Shown here piece by piece: positions 28,256 through 43,547 of a DNA stretch of 64,000 bases (positions within the stretch are counted from its first letter, which is position 1; each line of letters starts with the position of its first letter). The DNA is from Bacteroidota bacterium (GTDB lineage: Bacteria; Bacteroidota; Bacteroidia; Bacteroidales; Prolixibacteraceae): contig JAHEYT010000022.1 of assembly GCA_023251455.1 (NCBI GenBank), forward strand, positions 1 to 64,000, read 5' to 3'. The translations under genes and the position numbers were made by a program. The notes under the pieces are model-generated. The model was not told where the DNA came from. It saw only the letters and a program-made list of their open reading frames with translations, and did no database searches.

Positions 28256-29104
28256 TTATTGATAGAGGGTGCCAGTATTTACAACTGGAGTGGCTTCTTT
28301 GTCGCCGCACAAAACAACCAATAAATTACTAACCATGGTTGCTTTTTTGTCTTCGTCGAGAGTTACAATCTCACGTTTGCTCAATTCGTCCAAAGCCATT
28401 TCAACCATACTTACCGCCCCTTCCACTATTTTAAACCGGGCTGCAACAATGGCGGTTGCTTGCTGACGTTTCAACATGGCCTGTGCAATTTCCTGCGCAT
28501 ATGCAATGTAATTGATGCGAGCTTCAATCACATGAATACCTGCAATATCCAACCGTTCACGAATTTCGTTTTCAAGGACAGAATTAACCTCTTCCCCACC
28601 GTCGCGAAGTGTAATTTTCGCATGGTCATCTTCAATGTTGTCATACGGATACAGGCCAGCCAACTTGCGCAAAGCGGCTTCGCTCTGCACAACGACGAAA
28701 TGCTCGTATTCGTCAACACCAAAAGCCGCACGGTATGTTTCTTCAATCTTCCAAACCAGAACCAGACCAATCATAATCGGATTCCCAAGTTTGTCATTCA
28801 CCTTAATCGGTTCGCTGTTAAAATTTCGGGCTCGAAGCGAAAATTTCTTTTTCACGAAGAATGGGTTTACCCAGAAGAACCCATTGTCCTTCAGAGTTCC
28901 TTTGTATGCTCCGAAAAGGACTAAAACATAACACTGATTCGGATCGACAGCAATAAAGCCAGGCGCCAGAAGAATAAACAAAAAGATCAGGATAACAGAC
29001 GGAACTACAATTCCAGAAACAAATCCGGTAATTGCTAAGGCCAGAAATATAAATTCTAAAACCAGGAACAAATAACCGGAACGGGCAGTAAAAGATTTTT
29101 CCAT
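28256..29104 (-). CDS. SPFH/band 7 family membrane protein
   Basis: 282 residues. Two adjacent N-terminal membrane helices (GYLFLVLEFIFLALAITGFVSG, VPSVILIFLFILLAPGFIAV) precede the SPFH domain with PNQCYVLVLFGAYKGTLKDNGFFWVNPF and LVWKIEETYRAAFGVDEYEHFVVVQSEAALRKLAGLYPYD. A coiled C-terminal part ILKRQQATAIVAARFKIVEG follows. Such stomatin-like proteins form membrane-associated oligomers and scaffolds. It starts an operon with a two-helix membrane protein, a secreted hydrolase and an Arc-like protein and has a clear promoter. Confidence 0.92.
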   Translation of the reverse strand: MEKSFTARSGYLFLVLEFIFLALAITGFVSGIVVPSVILIFLFILLAPGFIAVDPNQCYVLVLFGAYKGTLKDNGFFWVNPFFVKKKFSLRARNFNSEPIKVNDKLGNPIMIGLVLVWKIEETYRAAFGVDEYEHFVVVQSEAALRKLAGLYPYDNIEDDHAKITLRDGGEEVNSVLENEIRERLDIAGIHVIEARINYIAYAQEIAQAMLKRQQATAIVAARFKIVEGAVSMVEMALDELSKREIVTLDEDKKATMVSNLLVVLCGDKEATPVVNTGTLYQ

Positions 29105-29144
29105 ACTATCAGATTTAAATTATTTTGATATTATATTGATATCA

Positions 29145-29175
29145 CAAATATAAATAAAAAAAGCACCTTTGTCAA
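29145..29175 (-). promoter_or_regulatory. Bacteroidota-type promoter of the SPFH operon
   Basis: On the minus strand TTG is followed after 20 bases by TATATTTG, matching the TTG-N19-21-TAnnTTTG consensus of the primary sigma factor of Bacteroidota. The start codon is about 40 bases downstream. Confidence 0.65.
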
Positions 29176-29196
29176 GATGCTTTTAAATATATAATC

Positions 29197-29233
29197 GGCA
29201 AAACGATTTGCTATTATTTGTTAAAACGATTTG
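29197..29233 (+). repeat. Two direct copies of AAAACGATTTG (candidate element-end sites)
   Basis: GGCAAAACGATTTGCTA at 29197 and AAAACGATTTG at 29223 are spaced 23 bases apart. The reverse strand at 43217-43233 has GGCAAAACAAATTGCTA, 15 of 17 identical to the first, with another partial copy at 43286. They bracket the accessory block as an inverted pair. Confidence 0.4.
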
Positions 29234-29259
29234 TCGTTGAAACGCACACGGATCATCTT

Positions 29260-29307
29260 ATCTAAAAGAAATAGAGCAGTATTGTTACCGCCCTATTTCT
29301 TTTAGAT
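29260..29307 (-). terminator. Hairpin at the end of the RelA/SpoT-domain gene
   Basis: Perfect 15-base arms ATCTAAAAGAAATAG / CTATTTCTTTTAGAT around an 18-base loop. The inner edge overlaps the stop codon of the gene at 29302. It lacks a long U-run, so it may stabilise the mRNA end as much as terminate it. Confidence 0.6.
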
Positions 29308-30330
29308 GTCCTTGTTAGAATACCCCAATGATGAAAAAACTTCACTTAAAACATCTTGTTCGAATTTCCAAGATTCCTTCAGTTTGTAACCTAATCTTTG
29401 TATAATAAAGAACATCAAAAGAAGAACTACCGGTTGTTGTCTTAAATGAGACTTTAGCGACTCAACAGCGATCCGTATTTCTTTTTTGTGATTTCTTAAA
29501 ACTTCAACAACATTTTCTAATGTATATTTTGACGGCAATTCAACAACATTAAATATTTCCTTAGAAATGGCAAAATCAACATCATTAAAATTAAAAGGTA
29601 ATTCTAATATTTCATTTGAAAAAGAAATAAGTTGTCTAACTATGTTTTTTTCATTTTGCGATTGGGTAACCATGTGATTATTTGCTGAAATAAAATATTC
29701 ATCAGTTATTTCCATAAGAGCCATAGATTTTGCCATAATTCTTTTTAGATCATTATCATATTCAAACTCTCCTTTATATATTGTATCATGGCTAATCTGA
29801 GCCCAAGCATGCTGAAGTAAAGTTTTTAATTGGACTTCGCAAACATACAAATCCAGATCTTCTTCAATTATTTCATCTATAAAAATGACACTCAGGGGTC
29901 TCAATAAAACATGCACAGCGCAATATGAGAATTTCTCAGCATCTAAATTAAATGAATATTCGTCTTTTATTTCAACGATTGACCAAACTTCTTTGTTTGA
30001 AATTATAGCATCTTTTATTAAATCTTGTTCTTTTTTTGATGTTACTACTATTCTAGTGCGTACTTTATCAGTTATTTCTTTTAACGGATCTTTGTATTTC
30101 TTATCTCTATAAAAAGCTTTTTTTAAAATAGAATCATCAGATTTAAGACAAAAATTTGGTGGAATCTCCAGGTTAATATCCTTATTAAAACCGTCCAAAG
30201 AGTTCATTAATTCATTTAACTTATGGTCGAAAGCTTGTCCAACTAATTCTAAATTAGGTTTTAGACTTTCGAAACTTGAAATGAATATTTGCTCTTTAAG
30301 CTTCTCTTCCATAAGGCTCTCCTTTAACAA
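29302..30330 (-). CDS. RelA/SpoT-domain protein (putative (p)ppGpp synthetase-like)
   Basis: 342 residues. Residues ~20-200 fit the RelA_SpoT synthetase domain: a leading helix, KKYKDPLKEITDKVRTRIVVTS, FSYCAVHVLL, and the best-conserved block CEVQLKTLLQHAWAQISHDTIYKGEFEYD, where the Glu of E-x-Q is catalytic. The Asp of the first block is kept, but the usual D-x-x-G-x-R glycine is lost and the G-Y-x-S-x-H segment reads SYCAVH. A helical C-terminal tail of ~140 residues is added. It may make an alarmone or related nucleotide, or be a changed derivative. It overlaps the nucleoid-protein gene by ~35 bases (17 if MEEKL at 30312 is the start), so the two are translationally coupled. Confidence 0.8.
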   Translation of the reverse strand: MLKESLMEEKLKEQIFISSFESLKPNLELVGQAFDHKLNELMNSLDGFNKDINLEIPPNFCLKSDDSILKKAFYRDKKYKDPLKEITDKVRTRIVVTSKKEQDLIKDAIISNKEVWSIVEIKDEYSFNLDAEKFSYCAVHVLLRPLSVIFIDEIIEEDLDLYVCEVQLKTLLQHAWAQISHDTIYKGEFEYDNDLKRIMAKSMALMEITDEYFISANNHMVTQSQNEKNIVRQLISFSNEILELPFNFNDVDFAISKEIFNVVELPSKYTLENVVEVLRNHKKEIRIAVESLKSHLRQQPVVLLLMFFIIQRLGYKLKESWKFEQDVLSEVFSSLGYSNKDI

Positions 30331-31384
30331 GGATTAAAGAATTACCACCAGAATTTGTTCTCAATAATTCATTTAGTGCTTCCTCCGAAATAATAGGAAT
30401 AACCTGAACATTTCTATCAAATGTATCTTCGGGCCCTTCGATTCTTACTTTATTAGGAAAAAAAACTTTCTTTGTTTTTAATGAAAAATCAAGTAATGTC
30501 GTATTTTTCACGAATGGTCTTGGATAGTCAATTAGAATTTGAGTTGAAAAATTTTGTTTTATATCATCATTCCTGCTAAAAAATCTATCTCTAATCGATT
30601 CAGGGTCAATTATATCTGAAACATCATATTTCATAGTATTCCTCATCAGCGATGTCAATTCGATTCTTTCAATAGGATTTTCAATTTGATCATAAATGAA
30701 GTCGTTAACTTGATCATAAAACCTTCTGGTTAAAATCTTATCATTGGAATTTAAATCAAGTCCGAGAAAGTCTTTAGAAAAGAATTCCGCAGGATTCAGT
30801 GTCGGATTAAATTGATTATCAAACAGCAAGCTAGAATATAAGTTATTGGGGAATGATTCATTGGCATTATTTTCTTCATAAATTATTCCTAGTTTGTAAA
30901 ATTTAGTTGATGGCGAAAGAAATATATCTTCAACAAATTGAATATCAACTTTACCATTTGTATGCTTTAAGGAAAGCGCATTATGTACCTCCGCTTTTAA
31001 CGCTATGACAAAATTTTCCTCGTTAAAGCTTTTACCCTTAATAATGAAAATATATCCTCCTGGGATATTTGACCTCTTTTGACTTTTCGCAAGCCTTTGC
31101 GCAATTCCTTTAGAATGTGAAATAAAATCACCATTATTCTTAATTATATCATCTACATACCTAAAAAAACTATCTTCATTAAAATCAGAAATCTTTAATT
31201 GAAATGATTTTGATTCAATGCCAATAGCATTGTTAATTCTTTTCTTTAAAAGTTCAACAATTCTGGCCTCTAAATCCAATGTTTCATTTTCAAACTCGCA
31301 AATTGAATGCTGTTGATCTCGTTGTTTTTTAAAAATTGTATGTACTACAATTTTTAAAAAGTTAGTCTGTGTGATGTTGATCAT
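30296..31384 (-). CDS. NdpA/YejK-like nucleoid-associated protein
   Basis: 362 residues. The middle block AEFFSKDFLGLDLNSNDKILTRRFYDQVNDF and the C-terminal LLDFSLKTKKVFFPNKVRIEGPEDTF line up by eye with E. coli YejK (ADFFMDFLGAS..., INFDAMLLGERIFWDPA...). The N-terminal part with NIPGGYIFIIKG also fits. Family members bind DNA and sit on the nucleoid. Here the gene is AT-rich, isolated from typical neighbours, and coupled to a RelA/SpoT-domain gene, which suggests an accessory rather than a housekeeping role. The family call is from remembered sequences only. Confidence 0.68.
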   Translation of the reverse strand: MINITQTNFLKIVVHTIFKKQRDQQHSICEFENETLDLEARIVELLKKRINNAIGIESKSFQLKISDFNEDSFFRYVDDIIKNNGDFISHSKGIAQRLAKSQKRSNIPGGYIFIIKGKSFNEENFVIALKAEVHNALSLKHTNGKVDIQFVEDIFLSPSTKFYKLGIIYEENNANESFPNNLYSSLLFDNQFNPTLNPAEFFSKDFLGLDLNSNDKILTRRFYDQVNDFIYDQIENPIERIELTSLMRNTMKYDVSDIIDPESIRDRFFSRNDDIKQNFSTQILIDYPRPFVKNTTLLDFSLKTKKVFFPNKVRIEGPEDTFDRNVQVIPIISEEALNELLRTNSGGNSLILVKGEPYGREA

Positions 31385-31489
31385 GATTTAATTTTTAGTT
31401 GTATCGTTTGATAGTTATGGTAATTAACTTGGGAAAAGCGATCAGTCTGCTAAAATAATAACATCACAATAACAACAATCTACACTTAT

Positions 31490-31501
31490 TAAAGCAGATT
31501 T
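31490..31501 (-). repeat. Candidate left terminal inverted repeat of the Mu-like element
   Basis: Reading outward on the minus strand, AAATCTGCTTTA is followed 11 bases later by TTGTTG. The same 12 bases and TTGTTG at the same offset are found reading outward at 42598-42609. Confidence 0.45.
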
Positions 31502-31730
31502 AAGTATCAAAATTATTTCTTGATTCTACTAAATTAAATCTTTTTTCAATCATAATAGCTGTATATGACAATAATAATATTTTAAACTTCATTAAGCACT
31601 ATTACTTAATGCACAGCAAATTATCTTTATAGGAATAAATAAGCTTCTGTCCTAGTGAAAAATAGAGCTGACACACCTTTATTTTTAAGCCTGGGGCTTA
31701 GAAACTCACTAATGAGGAGTTGGAGCCAAT

Positions 31731-31758
31731 AAAAAAGAGCCGAATAAATCGGCTCTTT
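31731..31758 (-). terminator. Terminator of the MuA-MuB operon
   Basis: AAAGAGCCGA / TCGGCTCTTT with a 5-base loop; on the minus strand TTTTTT follows. It lies ~140 bases after the MuB stop. Confidence 0.88.
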
Positions 31759-31899
31759 GCGGGTTAATCCTGATATGCTTTTGTAAAACGCTTTTGTCCC
31801 CATCGCCCGCTAGGTGTTGGCTAAACTTACCGACACAACAGAACTTGAACAAATATATTGAATTATTTAATCATGAAATAGTTTCGTGTATTCGTTAGC

Positions 31900-32796
31900 C
31901 TAACTTAGGATCAGCAAACTCTCTGCCCTTCGAAGGCCACCAATGCCGCCGTTATTGTCGTTAATCAGACACCGGCTGATGATCCGGTTCATTTGTTCGC
32001 TTGGACAATTATTCGCCTCTAAAACGTCAGAAATAAGCTTCTTATAAAAGTTGCTTCTTTCTCTTTGATCAATTGGAACTATGCGAGTGAATTTTTCGCT
32101 AAACCGGCTAAAAATTTCAGCGTATCCAACAGTTCTGTTACTTATCCCTCGTTCAATTTTAGCGCGTAACCCATCAGCACCCATCATGTACCAACCTACA
32201 AACCCCTCGGTCGCATTCCAAAATTCTTTCAATTCAAGAAAGGCCTGATATTCCAAGTCTCCCGCCTCGTCAATAATCAAAATGGGTTTATTCATCGTCT
32301 TTAAATGTATTTTCAACGATGTTTTAACGTCATAATAACGCCCTTTAAATTCAGTTCCAACGCTTTTTGCGATCAGGCGAATAAACTGAGTTTTAGTTTT
32401 TGCCTGTGAACAATCGATGTAAAAACAGTTTTTTAAAGTTCTGGCAATGTACTTAGCTGAGTATGTTTTGCCAATTCCGCAATCATCAACAAAAATTCTG
32501 GCTTTGCTATTGATTTTACAGAAAATAATTTCTTCCTCAATTATCTTAAACACATCCGTTTTTGCTGTTTTCCACTTCCTGCTATCAAGCAAAACGTCAA
32601 ACTCCTGAGCAAGTAACAACCATTTTAAAGGCGACAATACACCTTCTCTTTCTCCGTTGTGAATTCGCGTAAAAATTGCCCCTGACAGACCATACATTCT
32701 GGCAAACTGACCGTTTGTGCCGTCAAAATTACGACGCCGCAACATCATAGCCTCGTAAACTCTTTCTTTAATTTCGGGTGTAATTGTGATAGCCAT
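31900..32796 (-). CDS. MuB-like AAA+ ATPase, transposition target protein
   Basis: 298 residues. A helical N-terminal DNA-binding region (GTNGQFARMYGLSGAIFTRIHNG) precedes the ATPase with Walker A DDCGIGKTYSA (~residue 103) and Walker B PILIIDEAGD (~175), then a sensor-type region NRTVGYAEIFSRFSEKFTRIV. In Mu and related elements MuB binds DNA, selects targets and stimulates MuA. It follows the MuA gene by 14 bases. It is intact, so the transposition machinery looks complete. Confidence 0.9.
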   Translation of the reverse strand: MAITITPEIKERVYEAMMLRRRNFDGTNGQFARMYGLSGAIFTRIHNGEREGVLSPLKWLLLAQEFDVLLDSRKWKTAKTDVFKIIEEEIIFCKINSKARIFVDDCGIGKTYSAKYIARTLKNCFYIDCSQAKTKTQFIRLIAKSVGTEFKGRYYDVKTSLKIHLKTMNKPILIIDEAGDLEYQAFLELKEFWNATEGFVGWYMMGADGLRAKIERGISNRTVGYAEIFSRFSEKFTRIVPIDQRERSNFYKKLISDVLEANNCPSEQMNRIISRCLINDNNGGIGGLRRAESLLILS

Positions 32797-32810
32797 AACT
32801 TGGTTCTTTG

Positions 32811-34877
32811 TTAAAATCTATCTTTTAAACTCATATTAAATGGTGTTGAAATAGTCTTAAAAATATCATCTTCATCTTCAACGTCTTCCATGATCTCTAC
32901 TGGCCCAATACGTTCTGTAATTGGTTTTCGTAATCCTGTAATCTGAAATTTATTATTTAGTGTCTTTGGCGTATTGTCGATCACGGTTACTTTTTCGATC
33001 GCTTTTTTCCTGCGGTTGATATATCCATCAATTGAGGATACATATTTTGCCATCGCTTCATAGTTGAAAAGATCGTCGGGTGTGCGTTCAATCTGAGCCT
33101 TATTGTGAGCCGGTTTAGCTACGGCCTCACAAACACATCGGTCGGTACCGCGCAAATAGACCAGAGCTTTCATTATATGGCCATCGTTGCCATCGAGCCA
33201 GTAAACATCAAGCTCTTTTCCTTCAATTTGTTCAATAATTCCGGTTAATCGGTTGCTATAAACAATTCGTCCATTTTCGCCAATCAGGTACTTTTTATTA
33301 TTCAGCTTAATCTGACCGACATTGCATGATGTTTCTGTCTTATGTCCAAGGTAAGGAAGGAAAGCGCGCCAGTTTGTTGGTTTTACTTCAGGGTTTTGTG
33401 TTTCCAGAAATACTTCCCATCTGGTTTTACCTTTTATTTTGGAGTGTTCCATGTTATTCCAGGTTTCAATGTCTTTCAAACAACCTTCAGCCAGTAAATC
33501 GTAAGGCACAATAGGTTGCGGTTTTGCTCCAGCCTGATTCGATTCTGAAAGAGCAAACGGACGAGCCAACCAGCCTTCACGCTCTTTCTCCAAATCGTAA
33601 CGTAATGGACGGTAATAAGCTTCAATTCGTTTTCCGCGGGCATTATTGGCTTCAATATGTATGTATTGAAACATGGAGCCTTCCTGAAGGAAAGTATTCA
33701 GGAATGAGCTGTTTAAACTCATTTCACCCTCTAATTCTGCCGGAAGGTTCAAACCCCATCCGGTATAGTTGCGAACCATTTGACGGTAAAAATCAATGAT
33801 AATTCCCTCTTTGGTTTGTCCGTAAACCCATGTTGTGAAGGCTTCAGAGCCCAAATCAATCGCATTGTAAAACCACATGCGCTTACCTTTGGCATATTCG
33901 AATGGTGGCTGACGGTCATCAATAGAAATGATTGAGTTAGCAAACTTAGGCTGTATCATGTCGTGGTATGGTCTAAATTTCGACATCCAAACCTGACGAT
34001 TTCCGGAGCGAATGGTATGTGTTCCAACTTTCGAAGACCATTTAGATAAATAACTTTTAATTGTTGATTGAGATAGTTTTGGGAACTCCCCCGGATCGTA
34101 AATTTCGCCGGTTCCGTTGTTTATTACTTCAACATATCCGGATAGAAAACCATCGTACTGGCGTGAGATCTTTGTGGCTGTTGGTTTATCCGTTTGATAG
34201 GAAAACATCGAATCAAGCAACTCCTTAACTCGTTCGTCGAGCTTAACCGCCGATTTATTACAGAAATTGCCGTGAATCAATGCCTCATAACCTTCCTTTT
34301 TGTAGTCTTTCATTTTGCGTTGTAAGGCGGTTGAGCTTTCGGGTAGTGTATGTGGCCGAATAACTTTAAACCGGTTACATTCGCTCGAAACGATTTGCCA
34401 GGTTCCTCTTATGCTTCCTCTTAAATTGCGTCTAAGCGCAATACGTTTAGAATGTACACGTTCAACACAATTAAGAACAGACGCGTTTAAAGTACATTCG
34501 TCGATAATATTACCTGGCAACAATTTCCCATCATTAATTCGATAATTGATAAAATATTCATAAGCGGCAAGGTCTTTTTCAAAATGCTTTTCAAAAATTG
34601 ACTTTTTAGGTTGATGCTCTGGATTTCCAAAAGCCTGAATAAGTATTTTTTGCCACGAGGGTGGTACTGTTTCAAAAGTAATTAGCATCGGAGTATTAGG
34701 GCCACGCATACGAGAACGTTTTATATAACCCTTTTCAATTCTTTTTTGGAGTCCTCTTTCTCCAATTAATTGCAAACTTTCATTATCGGCGCTTTTTCCC
34801 GAAATAAGATAACGAGCTTTTACGCAAAGTTCACCGTTATAGTATTCAAAAGGTTTCCCAGATAATTCGTAATTCAT
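32811..34877 (-). CDS. MuA-like DDE transposase
   Basis: 688 residues. The N-terminal part has DNA-binding domains (RGLQKRIEKGYIKRSRMRG, then a Mu-type HTH region); the integrase core begins near residue 300 with SIISIDDRQPP, DLGSEAFTTWVYG and YIHIEANNARGKRIEAYYRPLRYDLEKEREGWLARPFA (~410-440), and a Mu-type C-terminal beta-barrel follows (WEVFLETQNP, NNKKYLIGENGRIVY). The second catalytic acid of D-D-E proteins is often in a DN motif; here the aligned spot is NN, so the residue assignment is open. The protein pairs and joins element ends during transposition. A hairpin unit precedes the gene. Confidence 0.92.
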   Translation of the reverse strand: MNYELSGKPFEYYNGELCVKARYLISGKSADNESLQLIGERGLQKRIEKGYIKRSRMRGPNTPMLITFETVPPSWQKILIQAFGNPEHQPKKSIFEKHFEKDLAAYEYFINYRINDGKLLPGNIIDECTLNASVLNCVERVHSKRIALRRNLRGSIRGTWQIVSSECNRFKVIRPHTLPESSTALQRKMKDYKKEGYEALIHGNFCNKSAVKLDERVKELLDSMFSYQTDKPTATKISRQYDGFLSGYVEVINNGTGEIYDPGEFPKLSQSTIKSYLSKWSSKVGTHTIRSGNRQVWMSKFRPYHDMIQPKFANSIISIDDRQPPFEYAKGKRMWFYNAIDLGSEAFTTWVYGQTKEGIIIDFYRQMVRNYTGWGLNLPAELEGEMSLNSSFLNTFLQEGSMFQYIHIEANNARGKRIEAYYRPLRYDLEKEREGWLARPFALSESNQAGAKPQPIVPYDLLAEGCLKDIETWNNMEHSKIKGKTRWEVFLETQNPEVKPTNWRAFLPYLGHKTETSCNVGQIKLNNKKYLIGENGRIVYSNRLTGIIEQIEGKELDVYWLDGNDGHIMKALVYLRGTDRCVCEAVAKPAHNKAQIERTPDDLFNYEAMAKYVSSIDGYINRRKKAIEKVTVIDNTPKTLNNKFQITGLRKPITERIGPVEIMEDVEDEDDIFKTISTPFNMSLKDRF

Positions 34878-34918
34878 TTTTCTTTTTGGTAAGTGGCTAT
34901 AAGTCTTATTGTATCATC

Positions 34919-34950
34919 AGAACTCGGTTCCGGTCAGAGAACCGAGTTCT
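34919..34950. repeat. Hairpin unit 1 with GGTCAG loop, upstream of MuA
   Basis: AGAACTCGGTTC / GAACCGAGTTCT, a perfect 12-base stem, loop CGGTCAGA. It is preceded by AGTGGCTATAAG, which is close to GTGGCTAAAGG beside the hairpin at 36055. T-rich sequence follows on the plus strand, opposite to gene direction. Confidence 0.75.
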
Positions 34951-34983
34951 TTATAAGTCAATTACATGTTACAACGCCGATTA

Positions 34984-35469
34984 TTAACCGTCATGAAGCT
35001 TTTGTCCGCCATAAAAGGCTTGTTTTATCTCTGATGAATTATAAGAGTTAATTGATTCAGAAATATCTTTTTCAATAGATAAAAATTCTTTTCTTTTCTT
35101 TTTGAAATCGCGACATATAGCTCTAAGTTTATTGACGGGGATCTCATCAAAGAATCTCATTCCGCTTTCACTGATTGCTATAATTTTTGCGGCATCAATG
35201 TTTCTTTCTTTGCCGAATAAATCTAACCATGATACTATTGAATCGATGGTTTTTATTCTCATTGTTTCAGTTTCAGGGGCTTTAGGGTTTAATATGTATT
35301 CAAACCTTAAACAAAAATCAGTCAACGTCTCGTTATCCATATCCATCGGACTATTTTTAACCAGAACGTTAATCTCATCGCTCGTAATTCCTTCCTGATT
35401 CAACCGTCGTAAAAGGACATAATATCTCTTTACTAGTTGATTGTGGTTAATTTCATCTAGCATTTTCAT
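34984..35469 (-). CDS. Uncharacterised phage-type protein upstream of MuA
   Basis: 161 residues, predicted largely helical (NHNQLVKRYYVLLRRLNQEGITSDEINVLVKN, then IKTIDSIVSWLDLFGKE, and a lysine-rich helix FKKKRKEFLSIEKDISESI). There is no motif I recognise; the position just before MuA in the operon suggests an early regulatory or DNA-associated role, but nothing in the sequence proves this. It is on the same strand as all genes of the element. Confidence 0.6.
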   Translation of the reverse strand: MKMLDEINHNQLVKRYYVLLRRLNQEGITSDEINVLVKNSPMDMDNETLTDFCLRFEYILNPKAPETETMRIKTIDSIVSWLDLFGKERNIDAAKIIAISESGMRFFDEIPVNKLRAICRDFKKKRKEFLSIEKDISESINSYNSSEIKQAFYGGQKLHDG

Positions 35470-35503
35470 ATTATTTATTTAAATGGAACTTCTCTATTTT
35501 TAA

Positions 35504-35545
35504 GATTCCGGGGCCGCCCTGAGAATCGGCGGTTATCCCGGAATC
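35504..35545. repeat. Double hairpin between the 141- and 161-residue genes
   Basis: GATTCCGGG / CCCGGAATC encloses CCGCC / GGCGG. It differs in sequence from the three GGTCAG-loop hairpins but occupies the same type of intergenic position. Confidence 0.7.
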
Positions 35546-35579
35546 ATTGCTAAAAAATGCTGTTTAAACGGCGTTTAAA

Positions 35580-35933
35580 TTACCCTACCTTTTTGAGTGC
35601 CTGAAATACAAGGTTTGTGCTGTTCGTTGCCGGTTCTGTCTCAATCAGGCTCAAGGCCTCCCTTATTCCTGTTTTTTGTTTGTCTGTTAAGTTTTTCGGC
35701 AGTTTGACGTGTCTCTCTTCAACGGAAAACGCTCTTTCGGTTTGGTCATCGTTAAGTAACATTTCTTCCAGCAAGTTCATCGCCCAAAAAATCTCACCAT
35801 TCTGAGGCGGATAATCATTAAAATTATAACATTGGACCAGCCTTACTATACTAAGTTGCATGTTCAATAATGAGCTGGAGTCTCCTGATAGGGTCACTGT
35901 AATTTTTAGGTTTTCTTTGTCTAATTCAACCAT
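35580..35933 (-). CDS. Uncharacterised protein of the Mu-like operon
   Basis: The ORF opens at 36005, but MVELDKENLKITVTLSGDSSSLL at 35933 is a more natural start for a ~117-residue protein. The N-terminal part has beta-strand character, and the C-terminal part is helical (KLPKNLTDKQKTGIREALSLIE, TNLVFQALKKVG). No family recognised. It lies between the tape-measure and MuA blocks. The extended start at 36005 remains possible. Confidence 0.55.
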   Translation of the reverse strand: MVELDKENLKITVTLSGDSSSLLNMQLSIVRLVQCYNFNDYPPQNGEIFWAMNLLEEMLLNDDQTERAFSVEERHVKLPKNLTDKQKTGIREALSLIETEPATNSTNLVFQALKKVG

Positions 35934-36054
35934 GATTTTTAATCTTTTAGGTAAGTAATTCAGTTGTTTTGCTATATTTGTATTGGATTTATAATTTTCA
36001 TTCATTTGTTTTTAGGTGAGTGGCTAAAGGTTGGGTTTAAGAGTTTACCATGAT

Positions 36055-36082
36055 AAAGCGGTTCCGGTCAGGGAAGCGCTTT
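36055..36082. repeat. Hairpin unit 2 with GGTCAG loop, downstream of tape measure
   Basis: AAAGCG-TTCC / GGAA-CGCTTT with one bulged pair and loop GGTCAG, followed on the plus strand by TTTTT. The orientation fits a terminator for antisense (plus-strand) transcription rather than for the genes. GTGGCTAAAGG and ACCATGA lie just before it. Confidence 0.75.
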
Positions 36083-36084
36083 TT

Positions 36085-39000
36085 TTATAGCCTATCCTTT
36101 AAAGTTTTGTTCATATCCTTCATTTCATCCCGAATGACAACAAGCTCTTTGTTGTATGATGTATTTTCCGCTATTTGCCTCATATAAAGCAGCGTTCTGC
36201 TTGCATCATCCTGACCCATTGCAATCTGTTTTAAAACATCTTTAATATCTATCCTTACAGCCGTTAATTGTCCGATTAATGCCGATCCGGTATCTTCTGT
36301 TAGATTTCTGTATATACCCGTCATGGCAGTACTCGAACTTGCCCCAACGCCATATTGGTCGGTAACCAACTTAACTGCCGCGGAGTTTTCTTCTCCTGAT
36401 TTTACAATTGTACTATATATACCCTCTAAAATTGCCTGCTCGCGTGGACTTATTTTTTCGCCGTTAGGGCCGACTTCATCATTCTGAAGGAATTCTTTAA
36501 TTTTCGGCAAAAAGTTGGTAGTGATATCGGTATTTGTTGAGTCAATTATCGCTTGCATCAACGCCTTTTTCATCAACTCACCAAAAGATTGGGCAAAACC
36601 GCCAAGACTATTTTCCCCCAATCTCAATCCGTCTTCAATTCCCTGATAAATTGAATCTGAAACCTCAGAAGCATCAAAACCAAGTGCATTCCTAAAAGTT
36701 TCCTGAAGCAATTCGGCTCGTTGTTTTTGAGATTCAACAATACCCTGAACCCATTCAATCTGTTGTTTATCTAAAACTAAACTACCATCAGCATAAGCCT
36801 TAACAAAATCATCTGGAGTCCAATTGGCCGTTTCTCCGCTCAACTGGCTTCTATATTTCTGCCATCCAATCTGCGCAAGTGGCCCATTTGGAAAATCTTT
36901 CTTTTGCTGATTGAAGTATTTCTGAGCCGCGGCATATTCCTCTTTGGTGAGAATATGAGAGGTTTGTAGTTTTTGGTTATTTAAATCAATGGCTTTGCCA
37001 TATTCATCGAATTGCTTCGCGGCAAGTTCAAAATAATTACTTCCGGCCAAATTTGCCAGAATAGTTGATTGTTGTTTTAAAAGTTCATTAACGTTTTCAA
37101 GAGCCTTTGTTGTGGGGTCTTCTTTTTTTGTTCCGGAAGAAAGCGCAGTTATTAGAGTAGAAGCAGCGCCAAATGCAGCGCCTACAAAGTTGCCCGAAGC
37201 AAGGTTCATGACAATATCAGCCATACCCTGCAGCTGCTTACTTTCGTCCTGGCTTAATCCAAGCTGTTCAATCATCTCACCGGTAAACTGGCGGGCACTG
37301 TTTAAAATATCATCCTGAAGTTTTGACTTGCGTGTAAGGGTTTCAATTTCGATTTCGCCCTGCAATAACTGTGCATTTTGTTTGTCTTTCGGATCGTTCG
37401 ACTTTTTAAGGAGCGCAATGCGTTGGTTGTTGTATTTTACCCAAGTATCGAAGTTAAGCTTCATCAACTTTGCTTCGCGATCGAACCCCGTAGCCTGAAT
37501 CTGGTTTTTTTGTTTCTCTATTTTTTCCTCAAAATCAATTTTTTGTAAGGCATATTTATTGTCAATTTCTGTGTTTGCACTGTTACGCAATGTCGGTATT
37601 GCAGCTAATAAAGCAGCATCCTTAGCCTCTGTGGCAGACTTCTCCTGTTCGTCGTAATATTTGTTAATCGCGGCCTTTTCTTTCTCAATTCCTTTGAGCC
37701 GGAAGTCAGATACTTCCTGCCATATTTCTTTAATCTTTTCGCCAGCCTTTTCGTTGATAGCGTCAACTTTGCTGTTTTTTAATTCTTCGGCAGCAATTAC
37801 TTTCTCATCAACTTGTTTCTGATCAGCTTCGGGAAGAACAGAAACGTACTTATCCGTTTTTTTTCCGGTTTTCAGGTCAATACCTCCGTTGGCCTCATTC
37901 ACTTTTTTTAACTGACTCTCTTTTTGGTTGGCAATGTCAACGAGGGTTTTCCTAAAATCCAGTTCGGCTTGTTTGCGTTGTTTTTCGGCGCTGTCTTTTT
38001 GGGAATTCAAAAGGGTTTGTTCAATTTCAATCTGGTTGCTTATGCGTTGCCGGCCAATCTCACTTTCGTAGTCGATTTGCTTTTTCGATAGCTGATTAGC
38101 TTTGTCCTGTGCTTTTTGGGCAGCTTCATCCACGGCAGTTTGTTTTCTGTTGATTGCTGCCGCCAGTTGGTTTTCATCCCGGCGACTTCCTATCTGCGAC
38201 TGGCCTTCAAGCTGAACCTGCGATTTTTTCAGTTCGGCCAGCGATTTAAGGGCTTTAAGGGTAGGCTTTTCAAACTTGGCAACCAAATCAACGGCCTCTT
38301 TGCCCGTCATACCATAGGCAGTCTCCAGTTCCGAATTGATGAGTAAAAGTTCATTTTTTAATTCGGTATATTTTTCAGGGCGCGAACGTTGTAAATAATC
38401 AGATTTAATGCCGGCACCTAATTTCTTCGACACCTCGTTATACCGTTCAGCCAATGCCATTAACTGCTCATTTTTCGTATATTCAAAGGTCAATGCCTCA
38501 ATCTTATCAGCCGACATCTTGTTATCAAGTGCCATCTGATTTTTTGTAAGCTCGTATTTATCCTTAGCAATTACAGCCTGTCGCGTAAAATCTACTTTTT
38601 GAATCTCAATAATTTTACTGAGGTTCTGAATAAGTTTGTCGGTATTTTCAACGCCTTTATCGAACGTTCCTGAGCGCAAATCACTTATTTGTTTTTGTGC
38701 CTCGGCGCTTTTAACCTCCTGCTCAATGGTTCGCCGTTCAACCTTCTCCATTTCTTCGGTATATTTCACAGCGCCCAATACAGCCCGGTCCATTCCTTCC
38801 CAAAAGTTACTCCAATCGCCAGAGGCAATGGCGCGGAAAAAATAATTTGTTGCGGTTGTTGCCGCATTCATCGTTTTTTCAAAAAAGCTGGAAGTCTTTT
38901 CCGTTGATTCAATAATTTCCTTTGTAACTTTCATCGCAGCAACAACCGAGAACAGTCCAACAGCCCAACGGCCAAGGCCACCAATTAACGACGTTTGCGA

Positions 39001-39387
39001 TTTTTCTTCCGCTACATTTCCGGAAGTAAGTTGCTTTTGCATGGCAAGCAATGCGCCCTGCTCTGCTACAAGGTCGCGCCTTGCGGTTGCCAGTGCCGAG
39101 GAAGCTGCAATCTTATCTTTACCCGTTGAGCTGCTAACAGTATTATTTAGTTCCTTGATTTGTTGCTGAAGGTCTTTTATGGCCTGCTTCTGAATCTGAA
39201 TAGATGCCTTTAATTGCGTTGCAGTCTGGGTGGCAAAATCGTTCATTGCCTTGGTCATCTTTACCGCTTCTTTCTCAACAGTATCAGTAACACCGGCAAT
39301 CTCAGCTTTCATCTTTGCACCCTCTGCCGCAAAATTGGTATGCTTCAGTACAAAATCAATATCTACAGGTTCAACAGAGTTGCTCAT
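36085..39387 (-). CDS. Phage tail tape-measure-like protein
   Basis: 1100 residues. The beginning (VDIDFVLKHTNFAAEGAKMKAEIAGV) and the long coiled-coil, Lys/Glu/Gln-rich centre (~residues 380-720) are typical for tape-measure proteins of Bacteroidota phages. Two hydrophobic stretches, LGRWAVGLFSVVAAMKV (~residue 140) and DIVMNLASGNFVGAAFGAASTLITALS, fit the membrane-interacting parts. The C-terminus (LLYMRQIAENTSYNKELVVIRDEMKDMN) is a common ending. Its length would correspond to a long tail of roughly 150 nm by the usual rule, but no tail tube or baseplate gene is near it. Confidence 0.85.
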   Translation of the reverse strand: MSNSVEPVDIDFVLKHTNFAAEGAKMKAEIAGVTDTVEKEAVKMTKAMNDFATQTATQLKASIQIQKQAIKDLQQQIKELNNTVSSSTGKDKIAASSALATARRDLVAEQGALLAMQKQLTSGNVAEEKSQTSLIGGLGRWAVGLFSVVAAMKVTKEIIESTEKTSSFFEKTMNAATTATNYFFRAIASGDWSNFWEGMDRAVLGAVKYTEEMEKVERRTIEQEVKSAEAQKQISDLRSGTFDKGVENTDKLIQNLSKIIEIQKVDFTRQAVIAKDKYELTKNQMALDNKMSADKIEALTFEYTKNEQLMALAERYNEVSKKLGAGIKSDYLQRSRPEKYTELKNELLLINSELETAYGMTGKEAVDLVAKFEKPTLKALKSLAELKKSQVQLEGQSQIGSRRDENQLAAAINRKQTAVDEAAQKAQDKANQLSKKQIDYESEIGRQRISNQIEIEQTLLNSQKDSAEKQRKQAELDFRKTLVDIANQKESQLKKVNEANGGIDLKTGKKTDKYVSVLPEADQKQVDEKVIAAEELKNSKVDAINEKAGEKIKEIWQEVSDFRLKGIEKEKAAINKYYDEQEKSATEAKDAALLAAIPTLRNSANTEIDNKYALQKIDFEEKIEKQKNQIQATGFDREAKLMKLNFDTWVKYNNQRIALLKKSNDPKDKQNAQLLQGEIEIETLTRKSKLQDDILNSARQFTGEMIEQLGLSQDESKQLQGMADIVMNLASGNFVGAAFGAASTLITALSSGTKKEDPTTKALENVNELLKQQSTILANLAGSNYFELAAKQFDEYGKAIDLNNQKLQTSHILTKEEYAAAQKYFNQQKKDFPNGPLAQIGWQKYRSQLSGETANWTPDDFVKAYADGSLVLDKQQIEWVQGIVESQKQRAELLQETFRNALGFDASEVSDSIYQGIEDGLRLGENSLGGFAQSFGELMKKALMQAIIDSTNTDITTNFLPKIKEFLQNDEVGPNGEKISPREQAILEGIYSTIVKSGEENSAAVKLVTDQYGVGASSSTAMTGIYRNLTEDTGSALIGQLTAVRIDIKDVLKQIAMGQDDASRTLLYMRQIAENTSYNKELVVIRDEMKDMNKTLKDRL

Positions 39388-39427
39388 CTTTTTGTTATTT
39401 AGTTTTTGAATAATTTGATTTTAAAAT

Positions 39428-39453
39428 GTCCGGGGAAGGTCAGTCCCCCGGAC
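39428..39453. repeat. Hairpin unit 3 with GGTCAG in the loop, upstream of tape measure
   Basis: GTCCGGGG / CCCCGGAC around AAGGTCAGTC, followed by AAAGGCTAAAGGCT and later CTACCATGAGAATT. The loop and the ACCATGA box recur at 36055; the GGTCAG loop recurs at 34919. Confidence 0.72.
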
Positions 39454-39499
39454 AAAGGCTAAAGGCTGTGAGAAAGAGCCGAAAAGCCTACCATGAGAA

Positions 39500-40141
39500 T
39501 TAATATTTTCGTATGAAATGTACGTCAAGTTGACCGCGTCCATTTATCCAACGAATCCCTGGAACAACTTCCTGTCTGTGTATTTGTTGGCCTGTAACTT
39601 TTTCCAATTCAGTAAGGCCGTCGCAAACTTTCCAAAGTAATTTAGTTACTTCAATCTGCTTTTTGCCAACTGCATAAACAGTGTGCAAATCATCAATCAT
39701 TGTTTTATAGTTTGGATTTAAAACAACCTTATTTTCTTCCTTATTAAAATCTGTGTAATTGAAGTATCTCCAATCTTCTGGGCTTAATTCAGTTAGTAAT
39801 GTCAAAACCGTTTTAATCTCTTCATGATTAATCTCCAACAGTTCATAGAACTTTTCTTTCTTAAGTTTAAGCCCTAATATTTTTTGGTCGGTGTGATTAG
39901 AATCAATCGTCAGTTGCTTTAAATAATTGCTGATAATTCGTTCTGAGTGTTCTTCGAAATCAAACTCTAGCATTATAGAGCAATAGTTGTGCAACGTTTG
40001 TTCAAGCTTGTCCAAGTCTGGGGAATAACCCCATTCTTGCAATTTGGTTAATACAGTACCTAAAATTTTGCATACATGTGGGCATCTTTCAACTTCGGAT
40101 TCAATGGCCAGCGTGTCTTTTGTAATAACTAGTTTTTCCAT
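39500..40141 (-). CDS. Uncharacterised protein upstream of the tape measure
   Basis: 213 residues, mixed helical (ERCPHVCKILGTVLTKLQEWGYSPDLDKLEQTLHNY) with a basic C-terminal part (GIRWINGRGQLDVHFIRKY). No signal peptide or membrane helix. No family recognised. In tailed phages genes just before the tape measure often encode tail assembly chaperones or tail tube proteins; here that is only an inference from position. Confidence 0.55.
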   Translation of the reverse strand: MEKLVITKDTLAIESEVERCPHVCKILGTVLTKLQEWGYSPDLDKLEQTLHNYCSIMLEFDFEEHSERIISNYLKQLTIDSNHTDQKILGLKLKKEKFYELLEINHEEIKTVLTLLTELSPEDWRYFNYTDFNKEENKVVLNPNYKTMIDDLHTVYAVGKKQIEVTKLLWKVCDGLTELEKVTGQQIHRQEVVPGIRWINGRGQLDVHFIRKY

Positions 40142-40165
40142 GATTTGATTATTTTAAAATTAAGG

Positions 40166-40651
40166 TCAAAATTTCTTTGTAAGGGATTCAATATCTGTAA
40201 AAAGACGTTTTTTTGCTTCTCCATAGTTATTATCGCATAGCGTCAGGTAGTCATTCACTTTTTGTTTTATCGCCTCTTTGGGTATGCCCTTATAGTCTAC
40301 CAACATAATGAACATCTTTTCAATAGTTTCGAGGTAAAGCAAATTTTCAGGAGAGTCGGATAAGCCTATCTTACTGGCTTCTTTAGCTTTAAAATTTAAA
40401 ACGTTTGGTAAATCGGTCAGAAGAGTCTTTTTTGCTTTCTCGTAGTCGTATCTATTTTCAATTAGGCAACAGTCAACCTTCTTTTTTAGGTTTTGTGATG
40501 AGAACGTACTATCAACCATTTTCATCATAAATTCAATACTCTCAAAAAAAAGATTATTCGCTTTTATATCGAGAGGTGTAAGTTTTTGGGCAGTTAATTT
40601 GTCGCTTAGCAGGATGGGGTATATACTTCCATAAATAATTGGATCAGACAT
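40166..40651 (-). CDS. Uncharacterised protein with two copies of a KVNDYL-type repeat
   Basis: 161 residues. Two repeats are visible: LFFESIEFMMKMVD...KKKVDCCLIENRYDYEKAKKTLLTD and LLYLETIEKMFIMLVD...KQKVNDYLTLCDNNYGEAKKRLFTD. A third relative of the same repeat makes up most of the next gene's product. Each repeat would give two helices with an aspartate- and asparagine-rich turn. No known family is apparent. It sits between a 213-residue and an 89-residue gene in the operon. Confidence 0.65.
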   Translation of the reverse strand: MSDPIIYGSIYPILLSDKLTAQKLTPLDIKANNLFFESIEFMMKMVDSTFSSQNLKKKVDCCLIENRYDYEKAKKTLLTDLPNVLNFKAKEASKIGLSDSPENLLYLETIEKMFIMLVDYKGIPKEAIKQKVNDYLTLCDNNYGEAKKRLFTDIESLTKKF

Positions 40652-40670
40652 AGCTTTGATATTTTAAAGT

Positions 40671-40940
40671 TTAGGGTTGTGTTTCTATGGGAGTCTGAAT
40701 CTGGGTTTCAAAATCAGCAAAAAGATGTTTTTTCGCTTCCTCATAATTGTTGTCATATTGCACCAGGTAGTCATTCACTTTTTGCCTTAGCATCTCAGTT
40801 GTACCGTCATCAATCATTTCAAATAGCATGATCAGCGATTCGATATAAAGCACATTCGCATAAGAACCTGCAAAGTCAATTGTTTTGGCCTTACTTTTAG
40901 TTGATCGAAAGAACTTCGGGATTTTTAATTTAAATGTCAT
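40671..40940 (-). CDS. Uncharacterised small protein with one KVNDYL-type repeat
   Basis: 89 residues. A basic N-terminus MTFKLKIPKFFRSTKSKAK precedes a single repeat, VLYIESLIMLFEMIDD...RQKVNDYLVQYDNNYEEAKKHLFADFE, that is closely similar to the second repeat of the neighbouring 161-residue protein. The pair most likely arose by duplication. Function unknown. Confidence 0.65.
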   Translation of the reverse strand: MTFKLKIPKFFRSTKSKAKTIDFAGSYANVLYIESLIMLFEMIDDGTTEMLRQKVNDYLVQYDNNYEEAKKHLFADFETQIQTPIETQP

Positions 40941-40951
40941 ATCGGTAGTTT

Positions 40952-41260
40952 TTAAAGTATTGGGCTTGATCCTTCACCGTATTTTTCAGCTTGGTAATTC
41001 ATCCGGGCGGAGAACTGTTCGGAGGGTTCGGTATTCAAAGCCTCTGAAATGGCTTTCATGGCCTCAGTTTCCTTAGTTTTATTTTCAGTTAAGTATTCGG
41101 CTGTGGCTTTTAATACGTCGGGGAAGTGCAGATTTCTAACGTCACCGTTCAAAACTCTTAAAACGGTATAGTAGCCTAATCCGGAACGGTCGGAAATAGC
41201 TTTTACCGCCCCATGAGCTAACCTTTTTCGAACGTCTGATAAATCAATAATTGTGTCCAT
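40952..41260 (-). CDS. HTH (Cro/LacI-like) DNA-binding regulator
   Basis: The ORF begins at 41329, but the ATG at 41260 gives MDTIIDLSDVRKRLAHGAVKAISDRSGLGYYTVLRVLNGDVRNLHFPDVLKATAEYL, a classical small helix-turn-helix (SDRSGLGYYTVLRVLNG). The extra upstream residues would read through the promoter and operator. It is first in the operon, immediately downstream of two matching palindromes, so it most likely represses its own operon. About 102 residues with an unordered C-terminal tail (EQFSARMNYQAEKYGEGSS). Confidence 0.8.
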   Translation of the reverse strand: MDTIIDLSDVRKRLAHGAVKAISDRSGLGYYTVLRVLNGDVRNLHFPDVLKATAEYLTENKTKETEAMKAISEALNTEPSEQFSARMNYQAEKYGEGSSPIL

Positions 41261-41288
41261 TTGTGCAGCTTTATTATTTATAACTGCA

Positions 41289-41296
41289 CAAATATA
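41289..41296 (-). promoter_or_regulatory. -7 element of the Mu-like operon promoter
   Basis: TATATTTG on the minus strand matches TAnnTTTG. It lies 29 bases before the regulator start and directly beside the first operator; a TTG 24 bases upstream lies inside that operator. Confidence 0.5.
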
Positions 41297-41302
41297 AATA
41301 AA

Positions 41303-41358
41303 TGTTTGACTAATATTAGTCAAACACAATAAAATGTTTGAATAAAATTACTCAAACA
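41303..41358 (-). promoter_or_regulatory. Two tandem 24-base palindromic operators
   Basis: Operator 1 (41303-41326) is the perfect palindrome TGTTTGACTAAT/ATTAGTCAAACA. Operator 2 (41335-41358) has TGTTTGAATAAA/ATTACTCAAACA and is identical to operator 1 at 21 of 24 positions. They are 32 bases centre to centre, about three DNA turns, and lie between the promoter and the upstream terminator. Confidence 0.8.
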
Positions 41359-41368
41359 TTGTTAAAAC

Positions 41369-41401
41369 AAATAAAGTCAGGTGTTTAGCCTGACTTTATT
41401 T
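41369..41401 (-). terminator. Terminator separating the 243-residue gene from the Mu-like operon
   Basis: Perfect 13-base stem AAATAAAGTCAGG / CCTGACTTTATTT with a 7-base loop. It closes the unit of the gene ending at 41427 before the operators begin. Confidence 0.88.
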
Positions 41402-41426
41402 TAAACTGGTGGCTATATTTCTTAAA

Positions 41427-42152
41427 TTAAATGCTTAGTTCTTTGTAATACGGCCTAGTATGTTCATCTGTAAAATCGAAAATGTTACAATATTTCTCTA
41501 CCAAACCTTCAAACTTTCGTCCCCCTCTGAAAATCCAATTTAGCTTCTCAAAACTCTTATAAAAAATAATTCTATTCAGTATCTCAATTGTTCTTTTAAC
41601 ATCATACAGGCAATTATTTTCAATTAAGAAACGTTCAAGTTCGGTTTGAACAATAGAAGAATACCAACTAAAAAGACTCATTCCCTTTGATTGATTTTCA
41701 TTTAATGAAAATGGCTCATTGAAAAATAAATCGATATTAATCCCGGCTTTATTTTTGTCTCGTTCATACAAATTTACAGTCAACGACTCGCCAGCCCATC
41801 GGTTTTCAAAGGAATCTAAATCCAGTTCAAGAATAAAAATACTCTGATAATAATTATAAATAGCTGCAAACAGAGTTGTATCAAAATCATTGAATTCAGT
41901 GATTAACATGTTGGCTACATTGGTTATTATAATCGCTTCGTTTTCAATAATTTTGATGCATTCTTTATTGTCAGAATTTGTTATTTCAGCAAAATCATTT
42001 TCAGTATAGTACTCATTAAAAGCTTTTGATTTTACCTTCGTATTTTGTCTGTTGGCAGTAACGAGGGCATAAATGCTAAAATACCGATCACCATTAATGA
42101 TGTAAGGCTTAAGATTAGTATTTAAATAGTGTTTTACTGTTATCTTTCCCAT
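41427..42152 (-). CDS. Uncharacterised protein near the upstream edge of the Mu-like element
   Basis: About 241 residues (MGKITVKHYLNTNLKPYIINGDRYFSIYALVTANRQNTKVKS). The N-terminal part is reminiscent of the arm-type start of Bacteroidota integrases, but the rest has no integrase catalytic residues and is asparagine/isoleucine-rich and AT-rich in codon use. Its own terminator follows. Function unknown; it may be cargo or a regulator. Confidence 0.6.
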   Translation of the reverse strand: MGKITVKHYLNTNLKPYIINGDRYFSIYALVTANRQNTKVKSKAFNEYYTENDFAEITNSDNKECIKIIENEAIIITNVANMLITEFNDFDTTLFAAIYNYYQSIFILELDLDSFENRWAGESLTVNLYERDKNKAGINIDLFFNEPFSLNENQSKGMSLFSWYSSIVQTELERFLIENNCLYDVKRTIEILNRIIFYKSFEKLNWIFRGGRKFEGLVEKYCNIFDFTDEHTRPYYKELSI

Positions 42153-42261
42153 TATCAAGCTTTAAAATGCTGAAAAATTGGTTTTTATACTCGTTCTATT
42201 CTCACAAAGATACAGCGATTGCCGGAAAAATAAAATGTCTAACAGTTATAAACAAATTAAC

Positions 42262-42573
42262 CTACCATTTAAAGTGTGGAATTTCGATCTTTAGTTTCTG
42301 TGGGGTGGGTTTTAACTTCATTACTTCGTTGATCTGATCGTTATTCAACTGGAGCCGGTCTGTGATGGTTCTTTCAGCTAAATCAAATTCATTAATGAGT
42401 TGCTTTATTGTCTCTTCGTACTTTAACCGGCATATTGAAGTGTGATAATAGTAGCGCAAAATCAATTTTCTGTCTCTTTTATTGATTAGGGTTTCAGATC
42501 GACCGCGGCCCAGCTTAATGGGTCCCGTTTCTTCAGCAAAAAAGGGCTTAAATAACTTTTGATTACCCCGCAT
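42262..42573 (-). CDS. Small HTH-like protein of Bacteroidota Mu-type elements
   Basis: 103 residues. The segment GRGRSETLINKRDRKLILRYYYHTSICRLKYEETIKQLINEFDLAERTITDRL combines a basic start with a helix-turn-helix. Short proteins with an RxxxLIxKRDxxLxxRYYY pattern are common next to MuA-type genes in Bacteroidota, so I assign it to that group by pattern, without a database check. It is the outermost gene on this side, 25 bases inside the candidate terminal repeat. Confidence 0.6.
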   Translation of the reverse strand: MRGNQKLFKPFFAEETGPIKLGRGRSETLINKRDRKLILRYYYHTSICRLKYEETIKQLINEFDLAERTITDRLQLNNDQINEVMKLKPTPQKLKIEIPHFKW

Positions 42574-42597
42574 ACTTTGGTTTTCAACAAAAATAAA

Positions 42598-42609
42598 AAA
42601 TCTGCTTTA
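42598..42609 (+). repeat. Candidate right terminal inverted repeat of the Mu-like element
   Basis: AAATCTGCTTTA, exact inverse partner of 31490-31501, with TTGTTG at the same offset further outward. The two copies bracket all recognised genes of the element. Confidence 0.45.
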
Positions 42610-43216
42610 TTAGTATGCGCTTGTTGCTTAAAGGTTATAAACAATTAATCTATTATCCGGATCATTGTCAAAATGATCTAAGTCCTTGTTAAATTATGGC
42701 ATTGCGTATCGAATATTCGCGTTAACAAACCCCGCTTGCAGCGCATTAAAACCTGCGCACACACGTTTTTAATTGCAAAATCAACAAAAATTTAACTAAA
42801 TTAGCTGTAAATAAGCTATTTACACACTCTTAAGAATATTATGTTGTGGTATTATAGGGGGGTGTATCCCTGCATTTTACACCACTTTAGGCATATTTTT
42901 TAGCACTAATGGGGTACTTATCCCTATGTTTTTTAGTGCTTTTTGTTCGGGTGTTACCCTTTCTTCTGTTCGGGTAAAGCCATTTTAAGGACATTTTAAG
43001 CGTAAAACTTTAACTATCCTGGAAGTGCCTTTTGGGTCTTTAAATGGCATTTTTATCTCATTTAAAGGAGTTTTAAGTAAAGCCCTAAATGGTGCAAATG
43101 GCCTTATTTTATTAGGATTTCCATCGTTATTCACAGCTAAATTAAACTTACACAAAAAAAAGGCCCAAAAATGAGCCCTGTAATTAAAGTAAGTTTAAAC
43201 CGAAATTAAACTTTCG

Positions 43217-43297
43217 TAGCAATTTGTTTTGCCTCGCTAATTTTTAAGTTGTAGTTAATCAGATAAATACAAACTGTTGTTTTATGCAATTTGTTTT
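43217..43297 (-). repeat. Two copies of AAAACAAATTGC (candidate element-end sites)
   Basis: The minus strand has GGCAAAACAAATTGCTA (43233-43217) and AAAACAAATTGC (43297-43286). The first agrees at 15 of 17 positions with GGCAAAACGATTTGCTA at 29197 in inverted orientation. Confidence 0.4.
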
Positions 43298-43322
43298 ATC
43301 CCCCTTAAATACTTTTTTTGGT

Positions 43323-43547
43323 TCAATTCAAATTCAATTCAATATTACCGACATTCCCTGATTTCAATACTCCAAGTTGTGATGCAAAGTTTAAAATTGC
43401 ATCAATACTGCTCTGTGAGGGTTCGAAACCGATCTGATTAAAATCGACATCAAATTCATCCGAATTATTAAGATGTAGGATTTCAACTTCCTTTTTACCG
43501 GCATAATATGAATTGATCAAATAATTCAAGGTAGAGAATTTACTCAT
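43323..43547 (-). CDS. Small protein co-transcribed with ECF sigma factor
   Basis: 74 residues (MSKFSTLNYLINSYYAGKKEVEILHLNNSDEFD). It follows the sigma factor gene by 69 bases on the same strand. No membrane helix or anti-sigma motif is visible, so it is not an obvious anti-sigma factor. The C-terminal part (SQSSIDAILNFASQLGVLKS) is helical. It probably belongs to the host rather than the element. Function unknown. Confidence 0.6.
   Translation of the reverse strand: MSKFSTLNYLINSYYAGKKEVEILHLNNSDEFDVDFNQIGFEPSQSSIDAILNFASQLGVLKSGNVGNIELNLN

Follow-up and report, generated by a model that had tools for sequence, protein, structure and literature searches.

A probable Mu-type transposable phage satellite carrying its own tape measure protein in a Bacteroidota genome

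Within the initial 64 kb (hereafter the window) of a 192-kb contig from a Bacteroidota genome, a MuA-like transposase, a MuB-like ATPase and a tape measure protein (TMP) are encoded in a common minus-strand run, in which other virion genes seem to be missing. What kind of element carries such a gene set, and how would it spread? A sequence-only reading of the locus had left three explanations side by side: a decayed prophage, a satellite depending on another phage, and a transposon that kept the tape measure for another use.

Extent, ends and gene content of the element

Based on the empty sites in congeners and on matches to phage ends, the element spans positions 29190 to 43307 of the window (14,118 bp). 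The boundaries originally proposed (31490 and 42609) were wrong; they excluded the right end as well as the genes of a RelA/SpoT-domain protein and an NA37 family protein, two cargo genes that overlap each other. In the congeners compared a gene encoding a 74-aa protein directly adjoins an SPFH gene and thus marks the empty site, whereas in the window both genes are separated by the 14.1-kb insertion (Table 1). The insertion is flanked by a target-site duplication of 4 bp, a length that also fits the related element of the genome G005 and the Mu-like prophage of the genome G004 (see below).

At both ends the element matches the termini of complete Mu-like phages from the same bacterial family. 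The non-coding DNA at the left end shares 69% identity over 226-234 bp with these phages (E 1e-14 to 1e-16), the matching region being located at an equal distance from the end in the element and in the phages, and no phage match was obtained with the reversed control of this DNA. In the phage contig L018 the homologous region separates the left end from the 3' end of the repressor gene. This location marks it as a candidate signal for packaging or transposition and not as the early operator.

Matches to the right end with one or two mismatches were also encountered outside the known elements. They looked like chance matches, as the control pattern matched many genomes as well, and the four that were inspected are located in or near unrelated genes. 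The viral contigs L187-L189, L191 and L195, which contain the left-end motif without MuA, were likewise judged to be chance matches.

Table 1. Features of the element and of its insertion site (positions in the window)
Feature	Position	Strand	Evidence or remark
SPFH gene	28256..29104		
Flank with intrinsic-terminator-like hairpin	29140..29190		hairpin just ahead of the insertion
Target-site duplication AATA, right-end copy	29186..29189	.	junction deduced from the empty sites of congeners
Right end	29190..29250	+	5'-TATAATCGGCAAAACGATTTG at 29190; AAAACGATTTG occurs again 23 bp inward, an arrangement also seen at the right ends of related Mu-like phages
RelA/SpoT-domain cargo protein, 342 aa	29302..30330	-	PF04607, E 2e-9; weak PADLOC PDC-S33, E 3e-5
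NA37 nucleoid-associated-family cargo protein, 362 aa	30296..31384	-	PF04245, E 9e-15; overlaps RelA/SpoT gene
MuB-like AAA+ target-capture ATPase, 298 aa	31900..32796	-	phrog_296, E 2e-31; AAA_22, E 1e-10
MuA-like transposase, 688 aa	32811..34877	-	phrog_310, E 2e-35; tree; dN/dS; conserved columns
161-aa protein	34984..35469	-	homologue of early phage gene downstream of MuB in complete phages; identity 24-31% to phage copies, 39% to G005
141-aa satellite gene	35580..36005	-	homologue in G005; distant one in G127/G131 in the same place, after TMP
Tape measure protein (TMP), 1100 aa	36085..39387	-	phrog_9959; full-length similarity to phage TMPs
213-aa satellite-associated protein	39500..40141	-	29% full-length identity to G127/G131; distant homologues in three further element-like loci
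161-aa small protein	40166..40651	-	related to neighbouring 89-aa gene and to 84/85-aa genes of G127/G131
89-aa small protein	40671..40940	-	same family as 161-aa gene at 40166..40651
HTH regulator, 125 aa	40952..41329	-	weak matches to transcriptional regulator PHROGs; 47% to G127 HTH
243-aa protein	41427..42158	-	N-terminus matches gene beside G127 integrase, 43% over 100 aa
103-aa protein	42262..42573	-	phage family phrog_17154, E 3e-9
Left end and ~600 bp of left-end non-coding DNA	42700..43307	-	5'-TAAGGGGGATAAAACAAA... at 43307; a second site further inward, followed by DNA with homology to the left ends of phages
Target-site duplication AATA, left-end copy	43308..43311	.	
74-aa gene	43323..43547		

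Ten ORFs of the element were compared with Pfam and PHROGs; for the two cargo genes, Pfam and PADLOC were used. All genes of the element are open, and MuA and MuB proved to be intact, as the sequence-only reading had suggested. Its tape-measure-like gene was likewise confirmed: the C-terminus of the predicted protein matches the TMP family phrog_9959 (E 2e-9) and its full-length sequence is 53% and 51% identical to TMPs of 1094 and 1090 aa, respectively, from Mu-like phage contigs; no match was found in INPHARED. Among the scanned ORFs neither head nor packaging, lysis or further tail genes were recognised by Pfam and PHROGs, or by Pfam and PADLOC in case of the cargo. As far as these family scans reach, the reported lack of capsid, portal, terminase and other tail genes is confirmed, the TMP being the only structural protein that they recognised. 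Pfam and PHROGs also gave no terminase small subunit, no capsid-size gene, no recognised tail chaperone gene and no match to an integrase, MuA-type ends being present instead, and the small genes beside the TMP gene gave no informative family match that would speak for or against tail chaperones or baseplate hubs. A divergent repressor gene is absent from the element as well. Pfam PF02914 did not match any genome, controls included, and is uninformative on absence.

In the alignment of MuA homologues at least 90% of the sequences keep the acidic residues D320, E383/E385 and E419, and no match to a solved structure was detected for the protein. Judging from the conserved columns only, this MuA family, phage members included, seems to have Glu in place of the middle catalytic Asp that would be expected in a DDE transposase. 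The two cargo genes (29302-31384) represent a candidate two-gene defence cargo.

Relationship to Mu-like phages and to a second element

The Bacteroidota Mu-like phages compared comprise the G004 prophage (G004:C40), IMG/VR 3300028862_000398 and, more distantly, the Bacteroides hankyphage p00. The element resembles them in the family of its MuA and MuB, in both end sequences, in the 4-bp target duplication (seen in the G004 prophage), in the left-end non-coding region and in the homology of its TMP. A 36-kb phage contig encodes a MuA 74% identical to that of the window and a TMP of about equal length (the 53% identical one), while the MuA of the phage contig L178, which abuts the same host terminator as the element, is 60% identical. 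However, these phages are ~33-38 kb in size, whereas the element comprises 14 kb with MuA and MuB near its right end, and it lacks head, terminase, lysis, other tail and divergent repressor genes of its own. The viral contigs L018 and L019 have the same phage left end but are flanked by different host DNA, which would be expected if the phages transpose.

In the complete phages of this group the left end is followed by the repressor, MuA, MuB, the early genes, the terminase, the head genes, the tail genes including TMP, and the right end. The element shows the opposite order of TMP and MuA-MuB; the earlier observation that MuA and MuB follow the tape measure at the downstream end is thus real. 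A decayed or rearranged Mu-like prophage would account for the MuA, MuB, ends and TMP in common with complete phages, but the comparison with these phages indicates that the order did not arise from theirs by deletion. In addition, its non-phage genes are collinear with elements of another genus.

A relative of the element (79% identity of MuA) was detected in G005, a Prolixibacteraceae MAG closely related to the genome of the window. It contains the 141-aa gene, the 161-aa gene, MuA and MuB in this order, MuB adjoining the right end without any cargo; hence no RelA/SpoT-type gene is found between MuB and the right end. It is split over two contigs, of which one has the right end next to the 74-aa gene and the other the left end next to the SPFH gene; the middle of the element is unassembled, and a search of G005 with the TMP of the window gave no matching copy in this element. 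Both elements are inserted at the same 4 bp, but they point in opposite directions and each has a duplication of its own; hence they look like separate insertions.

In the MuA tree the proteins of the window and of G005 form one clade with a support of 100/100, nested among phage MuAs. The dN/dS ratios between both elements amount to 0.07 for MuA and 0.054 for MuB, with synonymous sites near saturation. Due to the fully supported clade and the low dN/dS, decay seems unlikely. Taking furthermore into account the open frames, the intact ends and the second member of the lineage with clean ends and a duplication, the decayed-prophage reading is largely refuted, and we assign it the lowest probability of all explanations considered; neither broken genes nor relaxed selection nor an order created by deletion was found.

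The insertion point of the element immediately follows the hairpin of a sequence resembling an intrinsic terminator, which occurs at most once in each congener searched. The G004 prophage (G004:C40:11740-11803) follows a different hairpin and the flanks of L181 and L175 end in strong hairpins, which together suggests an insertion preference for terminators; no such hairpin was found in the other flanks of the group. Six of the 21 flanks contain a hairpin for which at most 1% of the shuffles were as stable, three of these six being the same host site. Insertions of this group of phages and satellites are often located within ~10 bp of the 3' foot of a terminator-like hairpin, and the phages of G004 and L017 have one further intergenic region in common.

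A tape-measure gene block in common with integrase-type elements

Elements of ~13 kb that encode a tyrosine recombinase and a TMP were identified in G127 and G131, which belong to another genus. No other structural gene was recognised among the proteins scanned, and a comparison with the empty sites in the genus of G127 shows a short repeat at the borders of the G127 insertion. Six genes are collinear between these elements and that of the window, namely the genes encoding the 243-aa protein, the HTH regulator, the 89/161-aa proteins, the 213-aa protein, the TMP and the 141-aa protein. Distant members of the 213-aa family occur in G067, G050 and G134, all of them in element-like surroundings. 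Thus, as far as can be deduced from these comparisons, the TMP block is a satellite-type module, which is paired with a Mu transposition module in the element of the window. The 213-aa protein had no match in INPHARED phages and none in the scan of viral contigs. Attempts to tie it to the proteins of further TMP elements by profile comparison gave a weak result, and only the three members in G067, G050 and G134 were kept.

TMP elements with an incomplete set of virion genes are also present in G005:C2, G016, G035, G050, G067 and G110. An integrase gene was seen beside the TMP gene in G005:C2, G067 and G110, and Terminase_2 is carried by the elements of G067, G110 and G035. Like the element of the window, the integrase-type elements (G127:C22, G131:C4, G067, G110, G005:C2 and others) have the TMP as their sole or nearly sole structural gene; they differ in moving by a tyrosine recombinase and, in several cases, in carrying Terminase_2 or DnaB/VapE replication genes. 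Five apparent satellites were located (G067:C1:543.4-556.2k, G110:C21:133.1-146.9k, G035:C1:2759-2769k, G005:C2:84.7-101.5k and G127:C22:249.6-263.0k), most of them with a tyrosine integrase and none with head or full tail gene sets. In G016 (C237:2957-4189) a 410-aa ORF on the opposite strand, probably an insertion sequence, splits the TMP gene of a satellite-like element.

The match of the TMP block to G127/G131 and of MuA, MuB and the ends to Mu-like phages could also reflect a one-off chimera, in which a G127-like integrase TMP satellite inserted into or recombined with the remnant of a Mu-like phage and now forms one transposon. Such an origin is compatible with a transposable satellite; if recent and unique, however, it would render the unit accidental. 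In the G005 element the 141-aa gene of the TMP block is joined in the same way to the module of the 161-aa gene, MuA and MuB, although the synonymous divergence is near saturation, which argues for an old and maintained combination. We consider such a one-off chimera very improbable.

A putative natural mini-Mu with its own tape measure

Among the three initial readings the satellite is best supported. We assign a probability of about 0.72 to a Mu-type transposable phage satellite, that is, a natural mini-Mu supplying its own TMP to the tails made by a helper. The element is discrete and mobile and lacks a complete virion gene set, its length falls into the range of ~7-20 kb expected of satellites, and its TMP, the 161-aa gene beside MuA, the ends and the left-end region are homologous to genes and signals of the potential helpers. 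Both Mu-like phage ends, ~600 bp of left-end DNA and its own MuA and MuB are retained, while the remainder of the phage genome has been replaced by the TMP-centred satellite gene block and by the cargo at the right end.

MuA and MuB would insert and copy the element by transposition, and a related helper phage growing in the same cell would supply heads, the other tail parts, packaging and lysis. As in mini-Mu, packaging would start at the conserved left end. The TMP of the element would enter the tails that carry it, resulting in chimeric particles or in disturbed helper tails. Since the TMP is the only virion gene carried, the element most likely exploits a related Mu-like virus for its spread. 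From analogy with known systems, and from one complete example of the element, we infer its helper dependence, its packaging and the chimeric tails.

Alternatively, the element may be a self-sufficient transposon or defence island, which MuA and MuB move within cells and which is not packaged; its TMP would then act against the tails of incoming phages, either as a decoy or by dominant-negative inhibition. This would agree with the absence of a packaging gene, with the RelA/SpoT-NA37 cargo pair and with the genome of the window, in which MuA and TMP gave one match each and no helper prophage was found. Moreover, anti-phage systems are known that act on tail assembly (PMC11364771, PMC10884400). 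However, the ~600 bp of phage left-end DNA seemingly exceed what transposition ends need, the TMP has kept the full length of a phage TMP (1100 aa vs 1090-1094 aa in the candidate helpers), and the collinear blocks in integrase elements as well as the small terminases in other TMP elements point to packaging. We therefore regard this explanation as unlikely; the related suggestion that the tape measure was kept for another use is also less supported, given that the TMP is part of a gene block in common with satellite-like elements and equals the TMPs of the candidate helpers in length.

The putative satellite may be compared with several known systems. Mini-Mu elements are laboratory derivatives of Mu with Mu-type ends and MuA/MuB but without virion genes, which are mobilised and packaged only with a helper. 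The element resembles them in combining Mu-type ends and MuA/MuB with the absence of head and other tail genes, but it is natural, belongs to an old lineage and carries its own TMP block and cargo, and its packaging is a prediction. With PICIs and cf-PICIs it has the size range and the partial phage gene set in common. These are, however, integrase-based and lack MuA/MuB, whereas the element has no tyrosine integrase with att sites, none of the terminase small subunits (TerS) found in many PICIs and no capsid genes.

The PLE satellites of Vibrio cholerae encode a TMP that replaces the TMP of ICP1 in chimeric tails; they represent the first report of satellite tape measures, from 2026, and some cf-PICIs carry putative tmp genes as well (PMC12987554). 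Like PLE, the element lacks most virion genes and encodes its own TMP; this likeness is one of gene content, and chimeric tails, known for PLE, are predicted for the element. PLE additionally possess genes for a tail chaperone and a baseplate hub, of which none was recognised in the element, and they parasitise a lytic phage, ICP1; no Mu-type transposition system has been described for them.

In the literature searched, which did not extend to most subscription papers, neither a transposable satellite nor a TMP satellite of Bacteroidota was found. We see even chances that the element represents an undescribed class of natural Mu-type transposable satellites of Bacteroidota, which combine helper-type ends and a left-end packaging region with a TMP of their own replacing that of the helper. 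Satellite mobility has so far been described through integrases, and a Mu-type mover would join two fields. If our reading is true, a natural mini-Mu would become open to study, and satellites of a second phylum would be seen to swap tape measures as a recurrent strategy, several integrase-type elements of the same family being further examples. In case of headful packaging from the left end, as in mini-Mu, the particles would carry long stretches of flanking host DNA and may thus act as gene-transfer vehicles.
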